Part shown: piece after piece, positions 30,763 through 37,153 of the stretch
How positions within the stretch are numbered: the first letter of the stretch is position 1
How the letters are laid out: every line of letters starts with the position of its first letter
Origin: Christensenellaceae bacterium
Lineage (GTDB): Bacteria > Bacillota > Clostridia > Christensenellales > Christensenellaceae
NCBI GenBank assembly: GCA_017523755.1
Contig: JAFWWA010000004.1
Span: 1 to 64,000 of the forward strand
Direction: 5' to 3'
Length of the DNA stretch: 64,000 nt
Notes under the pieces: generated by a model
What the model was told of the DNA's origin: nothing
Seen by the model: the letters and a program-made list of their open reading frames with translations, nothing else
The model's database searches: none
Made by a program: the position numbers and the translations under genes

Positions 30763-31632
30763 TCAGCGGGACAATACTCTTTTTATGAAAGTGTCCATCT
30801 TCTCTGTAACAGACGGGGCATGGAAGGCCGGGCCTGCATGGGGAGCGCCTTTAACAATGTAGAACTCGGCATCCTTGCCTGCTTTTTTGAGAGCGTCATA
30901 CAGAAGCTCGCTCTGGCTTATAGGGACGGTCACATCGGCATCTCCATGGAATATAAGGATGGGAGGGATATCCCTCTCACTGCTGATGTATTCCGTTGCT
31001 TTCGCGTATTTCATAAGTCCCGCCATCTTTTCCATGTCATCGCCCATAAGAGCCGAGGCAATGTCGTCTATCCCTTCGATGACGGTAGATCTGTCGAGGG
31101 TAAGCATGGTCATAGGGTCTGTCACTCCGTAGAAGTCGATGATGCCTTTTATATGCGCTTCGACTTCGCTGTCGGTGCCGTCATCAAGGACAGGCAGTCC
31201 GTTTGAAAGACCGACCATGAGAGCGGTATGACCGCCTGACGAATCGCCCCATATTATGAGCTGTTCGGGATCTGCCTGATATTCTTCGGCATGCCTGATC
31301 ATATATCTGAGACCGGCCTTGGCGTCCTCGACCATCGCGGGGAATCTTGCTACCTCAAACCCGCGGCCCTGAACCGATGCTACGACATAACCCATCTTTG
31401 CTATGCCTGCCAGGAATGGCAGCCATCGGTACATCTCCTGTTCCGCAAATGCTGAACCCTGATAGTATATTATCAGCGGGTACTTTTTGCCGGGTTCATT
31501 CTCAAAGGGTTTCATAAGCTGTATATACCTGTTTACGCCGCCCCTTACTCCGTAAAGTATATTGGGGTAGTATTCCACAGTCATATAATCTAGTTCAGCG
31601 TCTATAACGGGCAGTTTATCAATGTGTTCCAT
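30763..31632 (-). CDS. alpha/beta-hydrolase (esterase/acyl-aminoacyl peptidase type)
   Basis: A 289-residue cytoplasmic hydrolase without a signal peptide. The nucleophile elbow is GDSSGG (129-134, Ser131), the oxyanion area is IIYYQGSAF (about 54-62), and HGDADVTVP (about 232) and the late APHAGPAFH supply Asp and His. The layout resembles BD-FAE/acetyl esterases that act on esterified sugars or short peptides; the substrate is not known. AAGGAG lies upstream of ATG 31632. It lies 27 bases downstream of the signalling operon on the same strand and could be its last gene. Confidence 0.8.
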   Translation of the reverse strand: MEHIDKLPVIDAELDYMTVEYYPNILYGVRGGVNRYIQLMKPFENEPGKKYPLIIYYQGSAFAEQEMYRWLPFLAGIAKMGYVVASVQGRGFEVARFPAMVEDAKAGLRYMIRHAEEYQADPEQLIIWGDSSGGHTALMVGLSNGLPVLDDGTDSEVEAHIKGIIDFYGVTDPMTMLTLDRSTVIEGIDDIASALMGDDMEKMAGLMKYAKATEYISSERDIPPILIFHGDADVTVPISQSELLYDALKKAGKDAEFYIVKGAPHAGPAFHAPSVTEKMDTFIKRVLSR

Positions 31633-31659: not shown

Positions 31660-32844
31660 TCAGAAGAGAAGGGTATCGACTTCATCAAGAAGCGCGAGGA
31701 TCTTTTCTTTGCATATCTCTATAGAAGCCCTGCCGGTCTCTGAATCGAATCCGTGCCTTCTTATAGTCCTTCTCATAAGCCTTGTATAGCCTATCAGCTG
31801 AGCTTTCTTTTCTACAGCTTCTATCTCTTCAGTGCTCCTGCCTTCAAGATAAAGTCTTATAAGCTTGTTCCACAGAAGGTCAGCTGTTTCAGTAGGAATG
31901 CCCAGGAATGAAGCTGCGCTTGGTTCTCCGATGCTGTGGAAACCGGCATACGCATTGAACATGCTTGCCAGCTCAAATACAGGATGCCCATAGCATAGAG
32001 TATCCATGTCGATAAGAAGCGCTTCCCCGTTCTGGAGCATAACGTTCTTTATATGATAATCGCCGTGGAGAAGGTGGAGATCCTTGGGTACCGCGCTGAC
32101 GAGGGAAACGAGCTTTTCTGCCTTGTCATTAGGAAGGTAGTCCTTAAGGAAAGAAGCCCAGTCAAGAGCTGTTTCCTTCATATCAGGCATGCTTCCTTCC
32201 TTGACAACGGTACCATGGATCTGCTTTAAAAGGTCTATGCTCATCCGGGCAACTTCGTCGACCGTCTTCTCGCCTGTTATAAGTAGCTTTGCAAAGCTCT
32301 TCGCGTTCAGAAGCTCGAACACCGAGCCATAGCCTCCGCCTTCGATCTTTACAACGTCATAAGGGATAGCTGTAGGTATGCCGGAAACGAAGGCGATCCT
32401 TGCAAGCTCCCGTTCCCTGTGTATCTCGGGAAGAGCGTCAGGATTCAAATAGACCTTTACTATGGTATCTGCATCTATCCTGTATACTTTTCCGTTGGCG
32501 CCCTGGCCTATGATCTCGGCCCCTTCGACGGAAAGCACCCTGTATGCCTTTTTAACGTCCATCATCTCGGTGAAGCCTGTCATGTCGAGGACCTCATACA
32601 CATCCGAAGATACGTTCACAAGGGAGGTATCGTCTATCGCTTTCTTTATGCGGAGTATTATCCTCAGTCCCGCACTGGAGATATATGAAAGATCAGTGCA
32701 GTCAAGCTCCACGGATACAGGTGACAGCTCGGACATGCCGGTGTTTATCACCTTTTCGATATCTCCTGCATTTGCAGAATCGATGTGTCCTTTCAGTTCA
32801 ACAAAAAGTTTTTTCCCGTCTTTTCTTATACTCACGTTATCCAT
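31660..32844 (-). CDS. STAS anti-anti-sigma domain fused to an APH-type kinase
   Basis: Residues 1-100 are a STAS domain of the SpoIIAA/RsbV type, with the phospho-site region DLSYISSAGL (51-60; Ser56/Ser57). Residues 105-394 are an aminoglycoside-phosphotransferase/choline-kinase-like domain: Gly loop GQGANGKVYRI (113-123), Lys130, catalytic HGDYHIKN (260-267) and metal-binding IDMDT (278-282). All kinase residues appear intact. The gene lies six bases behind the HD hydrolase and in the operon of the PP2C/anti-sigma kinase, its probable partner. I infer partner switching that controls, or is controlled by, a small-molecule or protein kinase. The kinase substrate is unknown; drug resistance is unlikely in this context. 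Confidence 0.8.
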   Translation of the reverse strand: MDNVSIRKDGKKLFVELKGHIDSANAGDIEKVINTGMSELSPVSVELDCTDLSYISSAGLRIILRIKKAIDDTSLVNVSSDVYEVLDMTGFTEMMDVKKAYRVLSVEGAEIIGQGANGKVYRIDADTIVKVYLNPDALPEIHRERELARIAFVSGIPTAIPYDVVKIEGGGYGSVFELLNAKSFAKLLITGEKTVDEVARMSIDLLKQIHGTVVKEGSMPDMKETALDWASFLKDYLPNDKAEKLVSLVSAVPKDLHLLHGDYHIKNVMLQNGEALLIDMDTLCYGHPVFELASMFNAYAGFHSIGEPSAASFLGIPTETADLLWNKLIRLYLEGRSTEEIEAVEKKAQLIGYTRLMRRTIRRHGFDSETGRASIEICKEKILALLDEVDTLLF

Positions 32845-33414: not shown

Positions 33415-35573
33415 CAGATATCGATATCCTTTCTTATCGTTACGGTATTCATACCGTTCCTGTATTCATACTTAACATCATCCATGAGCTTTCTGGTAAG
33501 GAATATCCCGAGACCTCCTATCTCCCTGTCGTCGGCAGAAAGGGTCGTGTCAGGTGTCTTGCCCTTGAGCGGATCGAACGGAGCACCGCTGTCGCTGAAT
33601 CTGAGGAAAACAGACCTGTGATCATCCGATCTCCCTATCTCGACCTTTATGTCTCCCTTTTCCATTCCCCTGTAGGCAAACTTTGAAACGTTTGAAAAAA
33701 GCTCATCCGAAGCTATCTTTATCCTTGATGCATCTTTCATCCCGACACCGTATGATTCCAGCTTTTCATCTATGAAATCCATGACTCTGGGCTGGAAATC
33801 GGTCTCAGCCTCTATATTAAGGCTGCTGTCAAAGCGGATCCCGCTTTCTCCGTTATATCTGAGGCAGAGCATCGTTATATCATCGAACTGATCGGTATCC
33901 ATGGAGAAGTTATCAGCCGCAATACTGACGGCATCTATGATCTCTTTCGGAGTCTTTTCCGAATTGCTGTTCAGTACCTTTATGAGCCGATCGGATCCGA
34001 ACCTCTCTCCCTCGCGGTTTGCGGCCTCCATGACTCCGTCGGTATACAGGAATATACAGCTTCCGGGGGCAAGGTCGATTGTGTAATCGGTATACTTTGA
34101 AGAACTCATACCGCCTATGACGAAGCCGTGTCTGTCACGGAAAAGCTCAAAACTCCCGTCCGCACTGCTTATGATGGGATATTCATGTCCCGCATTCGAG
34201 GCCGTGAGCCTGCCGGTCGAAAGCTCGAGCACCCCGAGCCAGACCGTCACGAACATGTCTTCCCTGTTATTGGAACAGATCTGTTCGTTTACCGCCTTAA
34301 GGACCTGCGCGGGGGAAAGCCCCGACTGGGCCCTTGTCTTTATGAGTATATTGGATATCATCATGAAAAGCGCTGCAGGTATCCCTTTTCCGGAAACATC
34401 TGCCATGACGAGCCCTAAATGATCGCTGTCTATCATGAAGAAATCATAAAAATCGCCGCCGACTTCCTTCGCAGCCTCCATCGAAGCGTAGATGTCGAAA
34501 ACACCGACATCGGGGAACGGAGGGAAAACATGCGGCAGCATGCTTGACTGTATCCTCATAGCCAGGTTGAGCTCGGTACCGATCCTCTCTCTTTCAGCAG
34601 AATCCCTTGAGACCCTTTCGACATAGTCCGACAGCTCGCTCTCCATGGCCTTCATCGTGAGACTCAGGTTCTCTATCTCATCGCCCGTATGTATGTCGAG
34701 CCTGCTGAAATACTGTCCTTCTCTCCTGTCCTGTATACTGTCTTCATAATATGCCTTTGCCGCATCGGCAAGCTCGTTTATGGGGGCCACAACTCCTCTT
34801 TCGAGAGCTCTTTCCGAAAGCGCGACCACCAGGACATCGAGTATCAGGACTATGAGGCAGTACTGTGTGAAGAAAGTCCTGCTGAGTTTGGCTACTTCAT
34901 TCATATCCGTCTCAAAAAATATGTACACGACATATTTCCCGTGTGCAAACAGCTTTTTTCCGGCCATGCAGCGGTACCCGTACTGTTCTGTGTCTGACAG
35001 GACAGAAGTGAGCTTGGGCGTGCCGTAGAGGCTGTCCATATCATCCGAGAAGCCTCTCATGAGCCCGGCGAACGTATCTTCCTCAATGATGTCGAAGCTT
35101 CCCGGGGGACAGAACGTATCGGATGTGTCTGAGTCCGCGATGAATATCTGTCTGTGATGCTCGGGATCCATTGCAGCGGTATAGGCGGCAATGGCTTCTC
35201 CTCTTATCCTCATATCCATGAGGAGCTTCCTCATGCGCTCAAATGCGGGAGTCCGTACAGACATGAATCTCTCTATGTTATCCCTTCCGTCGCCTTTCTC
35301 GTTTTCGGGGATGCTGTCGAAAATATCAAGGACGGCAGCCGCTTCTTTCTGCACTTCTTCAATGTCGATAACGGCGGCGGCCATGTTGGAAAGATGGAAG
35401 GTGAGCTTTCTGTATTCACGGTTGATGGTGGCTGTATAGAGATAAAAGCCGAAGCTGATGGCGGCTATGCTCAGGATAAGGACGAAAAGGATGGTGGACC
35501 TGAGCGTCTTTCCCCTGATGCTGAAATGCATGCGCTCGAAATCGCTCATGTTCCATACGGATTTTTTAGGCAT
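33414..35573 (-). CDS. membrane sensor PP2C (SpoIIE/RsbU) phosphatase fused to anti-sigma-type ATPase domain
   Basis: A 719-residue protein. In order: membrane helix (about 28-50), an extracytoplasmic sensor domain of about 180 residues, second helix (FFTQYCLIVLILDVLVVAL), a HAMP-like linker, a PP2C SIGMA phosphatase (VGGDFYDFF, MADVSGKGIPAALFM, LYTDGVMEA, FDDITMLCLRY) and a C-terminal HATPase (IKIASDELFSNVSKFAY, FSDSGAPFDP, GGLGIFLTRKLMD). The phosphatase would dephosphorylate a STAS protein and the ATPase domain would phosphorylate it, so both opposing activities sit in one chain. AAGGAGGT precedes the ATG. The STAS-kinase protein two genes downstream is the obvious substrate. No sigma factor gene lies beside it. 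Confidence 0.88.
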   Translation of the reverse strand: MPKKSVWNMSDFERMHFSIRGKTLRSTILFVLILSIAAISFGFYLYTATINREYRKLTFHLSNMAAAVIDIEEVQKEAAAVLDIFDSIPENEKGDGRDNIERFMSVRTPAFERMRKLLMDMRIRGEAIAAYTAAMDPEHHRQIFIADSDTSDTFCPPGSFDIIEEDTFAGLMRGFSDDMDSLYGTPKLTSVLSDTEQYGYRCMAGKKLFAHGKYVVYIFFETDMNEVAKLSRTFFTQYCLIVLILDVLVVALSERALERGVVAPINELADAAKAYYEDSIQDRREGQYFSRLDIHTGDEIENLSLTMKAMESELSDYVERVSRDSAERERIGTELNLAMRIQSSMLPHVFPPFPDVGVFDIYASMEAAKEVGGDFYDFFMIDSDHLGLVMADVSGKGIPAALFMMISNILIKTRAQSGLSPAQVLKAVNEQICSNNREDMFVTVWLGVLELSTGRLTASNAGHEYPIISSADGSFELFRDRHGFVIGGMSSSKYTDYTIDLAPGSCIFLYTDGVMEAANREGERFGSDRLIKVLNSNSEKTPKEIIDAVSIAADNFSMDTDQFDDITMLCLRYNGESGIRFDSSLNIEAETDFQPRVMDFIDEKLESYGVGMKDASRIKIASDELFSNVSKFAYRGMEKGDIKVEIGRSDDHRSVFLRFSDSGAPFDPLKGKTPDTTLSADDREIGGLGIFLTRKLMDDVKYEYRNGMNTVTIRKDIDI

Positions 35574-35620: not shown

Positions 35621-35650
35621 ATGATATCATACGGGGAAGGCCGTTTTCAA
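35621..35650 (-). promoter_or_regulatory. candidate promoter of the phosphatase operon
   Basis: On the minus strand TTGAAA (35650-35645), an 18-base spacer and TATCAT (35626-35621). The -10 lies inside the palindrome ATGATATCAT, a possible operator. Confidence 0.45.
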
Positions 35651-35715: not shown

Positions 35716-36399
35716 TCAGTTCTGTTTTTTCAGTTTCTTAAGCCAGTAGTCTTTTCCGTAAAGCACTGCTTCTCCTATAAGACAGACCGGAATGGCAGCT
35801 GCTATATCTATCACCGAGTGCTGTTTTATAAAGCATACTGACAGGCATACCATGAGGACATAAAGTGAAAGGAGCGCTTTTAAAAGAGGGCTCAGGTCCC
35901 TGTCTTTGAGTCCCACCGAGAGCACAGCAAGGGAATATGCCACATGCAGTGAAGGGCATACGCCAGACGGTGTATCGAAGCTGTAAATGAACCTGACTAT
36001 ATCGGTGAATATGTTGTTCCTTGCAAATGTGTCGGGCCTAAGGTCCTGAACGCTAGGCCATACGATATATGTGAGCATCGCGAGGGCCTGTGTGATCATT
36101 ATATAGATCTGGAGCTTTTTGAAAGCTTCGACGTTATAGAACATCGTATATGCGAGGGATCCGGCTATGAGCAGGAACCATGTCCAGTAGAAGATTACGA
36201 AATACTCGCAGAAGGGTATCATATCGTCGAGAGGGCTGTGTACTATATTGCATTTTTCCAGCGGTATAAGATTCTCGGTAAGGAAATACAGGGCAAAGTA
36301 CGCTACCCATCCCAGCAGCAGCTTGAGATGCGAGAAGCGGGGGTCGTTTATCGTCCTTATGGAGAGCCCTCTGTAGTCGTACGGAGTCTTTTTCTTCAT
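35716..36399 (-). CDS. PAP2-like membrane protein (second copy)
   Basis: A 227-residue multi-pass protein with the same Aur1-like layout as 244-969: CPSLH (148-152, C2 motif) and KQHxxxD (192-198, C3 motif). The KX6RP motif is not seen. The two proteins are paralogues by motif order but not close in sequence. It lies 13 bases behind the PlsC-like gene and has AAGGAAC before ATG 36399, so the two probably act on the same lipid. Phosphatidate-like lipid dephosphorylation or head-group transfer is inferred. Confidence 0.8.
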   Translation of the reverse strand: MKKKTPYDYRGLSIRTINDPRFSHLKLLLGWVAYFALYFLTENLIPLEKCNIVHSPLDDMIPFCEYFVIFYWTWFLLIAGSLAYTMFYNVEAFKKLQIYIMITQALAMLTYIVWPSVQDLRPDTFARNNIFTDIVRFIYSFDTPSGVCPSLHVAYSLAVLSVGLKDRDLSPLLKALLSLYVLMVCLSVCFIKQHSVIDIAAAIPVCLIGEAVLYGKDYWLKKLKKQN

Positions 36400-36412
36400 G
36401 GATCTGTTCCTT

Positions 36413-37153
36413 TTATCTGTTGTAGGGTCTGTCTTTCTTAGGAAGATTGAGATAGGGCACTACCCTGTGCCTCGGCAGGGACACCGCCATCCGGGTTATG
36501 CTTTCCATAAGGTAAGCCGCGATCCTTTCTCTTTCCTTTTTAAGATCGCTGTCGGCATCATATTCCGTAGGCGCTCCGAACACTATGAGACCGAGAGCGG
36601 GGGATATATATGCCGGTACGAAGCTGATAGTCCTGCCGCTTTTCCTTGTGTACGATCTTGCGGTATCTATGAACCTGTCCTGAAAGTCATTTATTATGTC
36701 GTTGTGCTTTTTCGCGTATTCCGGGAATACAGTGATCCTGCAGCCTTTAAGAAGGAGATCCGCTGTCTTTTTTACTGTCGTGATTAGCCTGTGATCCCGG
36801 TAGACGGGGACTGTATGGGCGTTTGAGAAAATAAAGACCGACAGGGGAGCTATGACGTATGAAAGGATCCTGTAGAACCATCTGATATATACGGGCTTCA
36901 TGGACCAGAAATCCTTATACGCATAGGCAGGGACTTCCTTTATATCCATCATCTCGGAAGCGCACCAGGTATAGTGATCTCCCGGGATATAGAACTCGGA
37001 AGCCAGAGGGCCGTACATCTGGCAGTGATTGGCCACTATGAAGCATGGCCCTTCGGGCAGATTATCCGCTCCTTCTAACCGGTATTTCTTGCTGAACGCG
37101 ATCACCAGACGCTCTGTTATCCTGTAGAGCAGTCCCGGTCTTTTTTCCTCCAT
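36413..37153 (-). CDS. PlsC-like glycerolipid acyltransferase, divergent
   Basis: A 246-residue protein with the outline of 1-acyl-glycerol-3-phosphate acyltransferases: block I at FIVANHCQMYG (38-48), block II at VPVYRDHRL, block III as VFPEY (142-146). Block I normally reads NHxxxxD; here the aspartate place is Gly48, and block III lacks the usual FPEG glycine. A hydrophobic segment (97-110) suggests membrane association. It may use another acceptor or be catalytically altered. AAGGAGG precedes ATG 37153, and it is followed closely by the PAP2-like gene. Confidence 0.72.
   Translation of the reverse strand: MEEKRPGLLYRITERLVIAFSKKYRLEGADNLPEGPCFIVANHCQMYGPLASEFYIPGDHYTWCASEMMDIKEVPAYAYKDFWSMKPVYIRWFYRILSYVIAPLSVFIFSNAHTVPVYRDHRLITTVKKTADLLLKGCRITVFPEYAKKHNDIINDFQDRFIDTARSYTRKSGRTISFVPAYISPALGLIVFGAPTEYDADSDLKKERERIAAYLMESITRMAVSLPRHRVVPYLNLPKKDRPYNR

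Follow-up and report, generated by a model that had tools for sequence, protein, structure and literature searches.

The window, i.e., the whole stretch of 64,000 nucleotides analysed here from a Christensenellaceae genome, carries on its minus strand an operon in the order sensor-PP2C-HATPase chain, HD hydrolase, STAS-APH fusion and esterase (Table 1). The HD gene shares 1 nt with the PP2C-HATPase gene and lies 6 nt from the start of the STAS-APH gene; the esterase gene, 27 nt downstream of the latter, is probably co-transcribed with it. No equivalent of this esterase adjoined the fusion in any of 80 loci. It is therefore not conserved with the module and was left out of the mechanism proposed below. 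The promoter-like site upstream of the operon is a consensus match only, the total number of matches in the region being no higher than in shuffled sequences. Further upstream, on the same strand (35716-37153), a weakly PAP2-like membrane protein and an acyltransferase-like protein are encoded, followed by a terminator-like sequence recognised by eye. No diguanylate cyclase was found among the operon genes, either in the ORFs or by Pfam. A defence system was considered and rejected, as PADLOC gave no match for the operon proteins.

Table 1. Features of the STAS-APH operon in the window.
Feature	Position	Strand	Description or basis
STAS-APH ORF	31660-32844	-	394 aa, ATG start
STAS domain, fusion residues 1-104	32533..32844	-	Pfam STAS and model match to SpoIIAA
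Ser57 codon (AGT), predicted phospho-acceptor	32674..32676	-	Read from sequence and alignment
APH kinase domain, residues 105-394	31663..32532	-	Pfam APH, conserved residues and fold match
HD hydrolase, Mesh1/SpoT-hydrolase type, 187 aa	32851-33414	-	Pfam HD_4 8e-20
Membrane sensor, SpoIIE-type PP2C and RsbW-type HATPase, 719 aa	33414-35573	-	Pfam SpoIIE 2.6e-51, HATPase_c_2 2.1e-21
PP2C domain, about residues 340-577	33843..34556	-	SiaA-PP2C match and motifs
RsbW/SpoIIAB-type HATPase domain, about residues 580-719	33417..33836	-	RsbW match and motifs
BD-FAE/alpha-beta hydrolase (esterase)	30763..31632	-	Pfam BD-FAE 1.7e-45
Promoter-like site upstream of operon	35621..35650	-	10/12 consensus match, TG before second hexamer

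The STAS-APH gene product is, as read from its sequence, a fusion in which both the phospho-serine site of the STAS part and the active site of the APH part are intact. The initial annotation had likewise described a phosphorylatable STAS domain joined to an APH kinase with all catalytic residues, and this was upheld by Pfam, by the predicted model and by the conservation of Ser57 and of the APH residues. The Pfam match to STAS (9e-13, fusion residues 6-98) exceeded the cut-off and that to APH (1.4e-17, residues 110-298) reached 64.7 bits against a cut-off of 23.2, while the TIGR00377 score of the STAS part was 53.3 bits against 53.45. In the AlphaFold model (mean pLDDT 93, pTM 0.79), residues 1-100 superimpose on SpoIIAA from SpoIIAA/SpoIIAB complexes with a Z of 16.3 and 1.6 A over 100 residues. 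Ser57 sits within the motif YISSAGL, where helix 2 of the STAS domain begins, and aligns with SpoIIAA Ser58 and RsbV Ser56. The STAS fold ends at about residue 100 and the first APH strands are modelled at about residues 102-110, so that the predicted junction is almost free of linker.

From about residue 100 to 391, the model matches APH/choline-kinase folds with a Z of about 15-16.5. These matches include APH(4)-Ia (Z 16.5), choline kinase-like proteins, LicA, methylthioribose kinase and LxmKY, and they are equally good for antibiotic, choline and methylthioribose kinases. The catalytic residues, namely the catalytic lysine (Lys130), the HxDxxxxN motif (HGD260-262, Asn267) and Asp279, are all intact. 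Fold and catalytic motifs are thus common to the fusion and to the TIGR02172/APH-family kinases (LicA choline kinase, aminoglycoside and methylthioribose kinases), whereas the APH part scores only 90.6 bits with TIGR02172, below its curated cut-off of 228.2. No equivalog of known substrate and no resistance equivalog was found above cut-off for this part, and antibiotic resistance is not claimed for it on the latter ground.

The initial annotation had placed the fusion next to a chain holding phosphatase and anti-sigma kinase domains. The two do share an operon, but they are not immediate neighbours, since the HD gene, which had been missed, lies between them. In the chain, two hydrophobic stretches (about residues 23-50 and 232-258) belong to the sensor part, which has no Pfam match; its predicted model consists of a transmembrane helix, helices, a beta sheet and a second transmembrane helix, and may possibly be Cache-like. 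The best fold match of the PP2C model is SiaA-PP2C (Z 26.1, rmsd 2.4 A over 238 residues), and its motifs GGDFYD, DVSGKG, YTDG and DD are kept and conserved. The HATPase model superimposes on RsbW from the RsbV/RsbW complex with a Z of 17.3 and an rmsd of 1.7 A over 115 residues, and its E/N box, DxG and GGLG are intact and conserved. The closest solved relatives of the HD protein in the PDB are Lmo0812 (1.9e-20) and Mesh1/ppGpp hydrolases (Mesh1, 3e-19), and the R/K, H, HD, ED and D/N motifs are kept when it is aligned with Lmo0812 and another HD hydrolase. By its domain content, an HD hydrolase domain with no synthetase, it is a predicted small alarmone hydrolase of the Mesh1-like type.

A genome scan across bacteria reported 533 relatives, most of them in metagenome bins. 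The best 80 were fetched, together with 37 further stretches from genomes of the same class, and 112 STAS-APH copies out of the 533 relatives were examined; the same fusion and neighbours were indeed found in other genomes. With 58 aligned full-length copies and this number of reported relatives, the fusion is far beyond chance. In the 58-row alignment, the fusions are 56-70% identical to the window protein over their whole length. Ser57 is present in 88/88 core copies, in all six triple-fusion copies (see below) and in 18/19 divergent copies, the remaining one showing a gap, and Lys130, His260, Asp262, Asn267 and Asp279 are equally kept in the three groups. The distribution is patchy, with the fusion occurring in 2 of the 18 genomes of the window's own family. 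Named carriers include Clostridia, Erysipelotrichaceae and Coriobacteria; many of the names come from metagenome bins, and one carrier record (L063, Erysipelotrichaceae bacterium NK3D112) bears a strain name and no MAG label. Plasmid or phage cargo was rejected, as no copy of the fusion protein was found on the plasmids and phages searched.

Gene neighbourhoods were labelled with profiles built for this analysis and checked with Pfam for examples. Upstream sequence of 3 kb or more was available for 82 core copies. Of these, 69 are preceded on their own strand by partner-switch genes, and in 64 a HATPase is either encoded upstream or part of the same chain; every HATPase gene counted in the core loci is oriented like the fusion. 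The gene directly before the fusion is often that of the PP2C-HATPase or of a solo HATPase, with a median gap of 15-25 nt, and in twelve copies it encodes a solo soluble-type HATPase. In six genomes forming one supported clade, one of them from the same family as the window's genome, STAS, APH and HATPase lie in one chain. This single-chain arrangement is the strongest evidence for the HATPase as the partner of the STAS domain. For 13 locally unlinked copies in the first set, the genomes were searched, and 13/13 encode RsbW-type HATPases elsewhere. The 69 linked core copies and these 13 genomes are the outcome of the check for homologues devoid of any link to PP2C/HATPase partners, which would have spoken against the proposal. 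Divergent copies are less often locally linked to partner-switch genes. Solo STAS genes in the fusion loci keep the serine (57/57). As far as genes can tell, the fusion has the features of a SpoIIAA/RsbV-type protein: a STAS fold, a predicted phospho-acceptor serine and a linked HATPase and PP2C.

Other proteins in these loci carry partner-switch domains as well. MATE-type genes occur in 14 fusion operons and are nearly all fused to a C-terminal RsbW-like HATPase (L006:2718-4475, L019:6751-8523, L168:9095-10864 and others; both parts called by Pfam); in L168, this is the sole HATPase gene of the operon. Such fusions look like direct partner-switch control of a transporter. SDF-type symporters with about 150 aa of extra N-terminal region were observed in 8 operons (L016:1815-3470, L067:3604-5334, L003:1-1602). 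A STAS domain with its serine kept is fused to a Cof-type HAD phosphatase in three STAS-APH operons (L039:2784-3866, L047:3801-4925, L056:3655-4788) and lies at the C-terminus of a GH3-family enzyme with GH3 N, M and C domains in L033:9487-11529. Seven STAS-APH loci (L144:4159-4728, L146:5341-5937, L148, L150, L158, L161 and L076) share a protein family of about 190-200 aa, usually encoded beside STAS or PP2C genes; two scanned members have no Pfam match.

Because the HATPase is also found on MATE transporters, a docking system in which the docked kinase is active at a membrane protein has to be taken as a serious rival. Here, the HATPase carried by membrane proteins (sensor-PP2C, MATE and possibly SDF transporters) would bring STAS-APH to the membrane, and the kinase would act there on a transported or membrane-bound substrate. 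The 14 operons with MATE-type genes, the SDF symporters with their extensions and the membrane chain bearing the window's own HATPase are consistent with it. However, the HATPase-like character of the SDF extension was seen by eye only and was not called by Pfam, and the twelve copies directly after a soluble-type HATPase, together with the six having the HATPase in the same chain, argue against membrane recruitment, which we regard as quite unlikely.

The initial annotation had also pointed out that no sigma factor gene is adjacent, and indeed none was found on the window's contig. According to profile searches, the genome to which the window belongs has one STAS, one HATPase_c_2 (RsbW-type) and one SpoIIE (PP2C) domain, all in the fusion operon; it comprises 1.56 Mb and is 69% complete, so further STAS or sigma genes may lie in the missing part. 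Its detected sigma factors are SigH and ECF-like, and no SigB/F/G was found at this 69% completeness. A further 13 fusion-carrying genomes, at least 90% complete by rounded figures, were searched with the SigB/F/G model. Seven of them (G356, with 9% contamination, G311, G296, G185, G283, G129 and G219) gave only RpoD-sized or weaker matches to it. Five encode a SigB/F/G gene above cut-off, and in G008 such a gene scores somewhat under this value. Two of the seven, G129 and G219, have both of their STAS domains within the fusion operon.

These data bear on a second rival, in which STAS-APH would still be an anti-sigma antagonist, with a sigma factor, possibly RpoD or SigH, held by the HATPase, while the APH part would only sense a ligand or tune the STAS domain. 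Such a system would use the standard RsbU/RsbV/RsbW set seen here, it would find SigB/F/G in some of the fusion genomes and SigH and ECF factors in the window's genome, and RsbW can target a primary sigma factor, as with sigma-66 in Chlamydia (PMC4552016). It would nevertheless leave without SigB/F/G the window's genome and the seven near-complete ones, the triple fusions tie the HATPase to the kinase, and no copy has lost the APH active site, although a mere sensor would not need one; we thus hold it to be rather unlikely. Since a primary sigma factor can be the target (PMC4552016), the step from the absence of SigB/F/G to the APH kinase as output is one that we infer. On comparative grounds, the initial proposal that a kinase takes the place of a sigma factor as output is well supported, with the operon, the triple fusions, the invariant Ser57 and the near-complete genomes without SigB/F/G all pointing to it.

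The kinase is also accompanied by phosphatase-type genes. The HD gene is exactly one gene upstream of the fusion (position -1) in 35 of 36 HD matches, HAD phosphatase genes recur in fusion operons and are fused to STAS in the three loci given above, and PHP phosphatase-type genes recur as well. In L159 and L162, Y_phosphatase3 genes alternate with divergent STAS-APH genes in tandem arrays. A Mesh1-like HD domain and an APH of the same kind form a single protein without STAS in two genomes (L174:6583-8061, L175:6977-8473). The HD link is strong; the HAD, PHP and Y_phosphatase3 links rest on few loci. A kinase paired with phosphatases that change between loci suggests a metabolite or signal that is reversibly phosphorylated. 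As the substrates of orphan small alarmone hydrolases can extend beyond alarmones (PMC9765508), ppGpp was not assumed to be the substrate of the HD protein.

Alternatively, the APH part could be a protein kinase acting on the STAS domain or on another protein. APH-fold kinases can act on peptides, LxmKY being among the fold matches, and the Y_phosphatase3 genes between tandem copies would fit such an activity. We consider it very improbable, as the best fold matches are small-molecule kinases, the HATPase, the cognate type of STAS kinase, is present, and relatives of the APH part occur without STAS (HD-APH and solo APH). In particular, phosphorylation of its own STAS domain, raised initially as an option, gains no support because a STAS kinase of the canonical type is available in the genomes tested and these STAS-free relatives exist.

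The reading we favour, and hold to be fairly probable, is partner switching that works independently of sigma factors and has the APH kinase as its effector, an outside signal probably turning an enzyme, not a gene set, on or off. The membrane sensor would alter the activity of its PP2C domain. Judging from their families and genetic linkage, the PP2C would strip the phosphate from Ser57 and the RsbW-type HATPase would phosphorylate it. Unphosphorylated STAS-APH would dock on the HATPase, in line with the binding described for RsbV and SpoIIAA (PMC11418112), and phosphorylated STAS-APH would be free. Because the STAS domain is predicted to abut the N-lobe of the APH domain, the docked or free state could gate the kinase, and the direction in which docked means off is slightly preferred. 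The APH domain would most likely act on a small molecule, and the Mesh1-like HD protein, given its position and the HD-APH fusions, may act on the same or a connected metabolite.

Several elements of this circuit have counterparts in known systems. The PP2C phosphatase, the STAS protein with its phospho-serine site and the HATPase kinase are those of RsbU-RsbV-RsbW and SpoIIE-SpoIIAA-SpoIIAB of Bacillus, whose solved complexes match the folds found here, whereas in the window the STAS domain belongs to a fusion with a kinase, one chain holds both PP2C and HATPase, and no SigB/F/G was found in the 69% complete genome. PP2C and HATPase also share one chain in the RsbU-RsbW fusion Rv1364c of Mycobacterium tuberculosis (3ke6, Z 25.0). 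That protein has a STAS domain of its own as well and is directed at SigF, whereas here the STAS domain sits on a separate kinase. Textbook partner switching is sigma factor control; in the few cases that depart from this, the output is a cyclase or a target not yet known. An enzyme output and a PP2C phosphatase, the latter being the best fold match noted above, are found in SiaABCD of Pseudomonas aeruginosa, where partner switching controls the diguanylate cyclase SiaD and SiaB phosphorylates Thr68 of the STAS-like SiaC, a protein in its own right (PMC7647112); here, instead of a cyclase, the output would be an APH kinase fused to STAS. In SypA-SypE of Vibrio fischeri, the STAS protein is itself the downstream component, controlled by its serine phosphorylation (PMC10120452), but SypA is a single-domain STAS protein without a fused kinase. 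Non-sigma outputs (SiaABCD, SypA) and the PP2C-HATPase fusion (Rv1364c) are already known. No description of the STAS-APH fusion, of an APH-kinase output or of a TIGR02172 function was found in the open-licence PMC papers searched.

In many gut and rumen bacteria, the switch domain is covalently built into an enzyme whose kinase active site is recognisable, and the whole STAS-kinase-HATPase set is sometimes a single chain. The fusion allows a direct test, in which the kinase is measured while the state of Ser57 is set, and it opens a way towards understanding what a large unnamed group of APH kinases and the adjacent Mesh1-like hydrolase do. More tentatively, partner-switch domains may serve in gut Clostridia and their relatives as a general plug-and-socket code directly controlling metabolic enzymes and transporters without sigma factors, with STAS placed on an APH kinase, a HAD phosphatase or a GH3 enzyme, and with MATE transporters, PP2C and kinase chains bearing the HATPase. 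In that case, STAS-APH and HD would form a pair that produces and removes a phosphorylated signal or metabolite not recognised so far.
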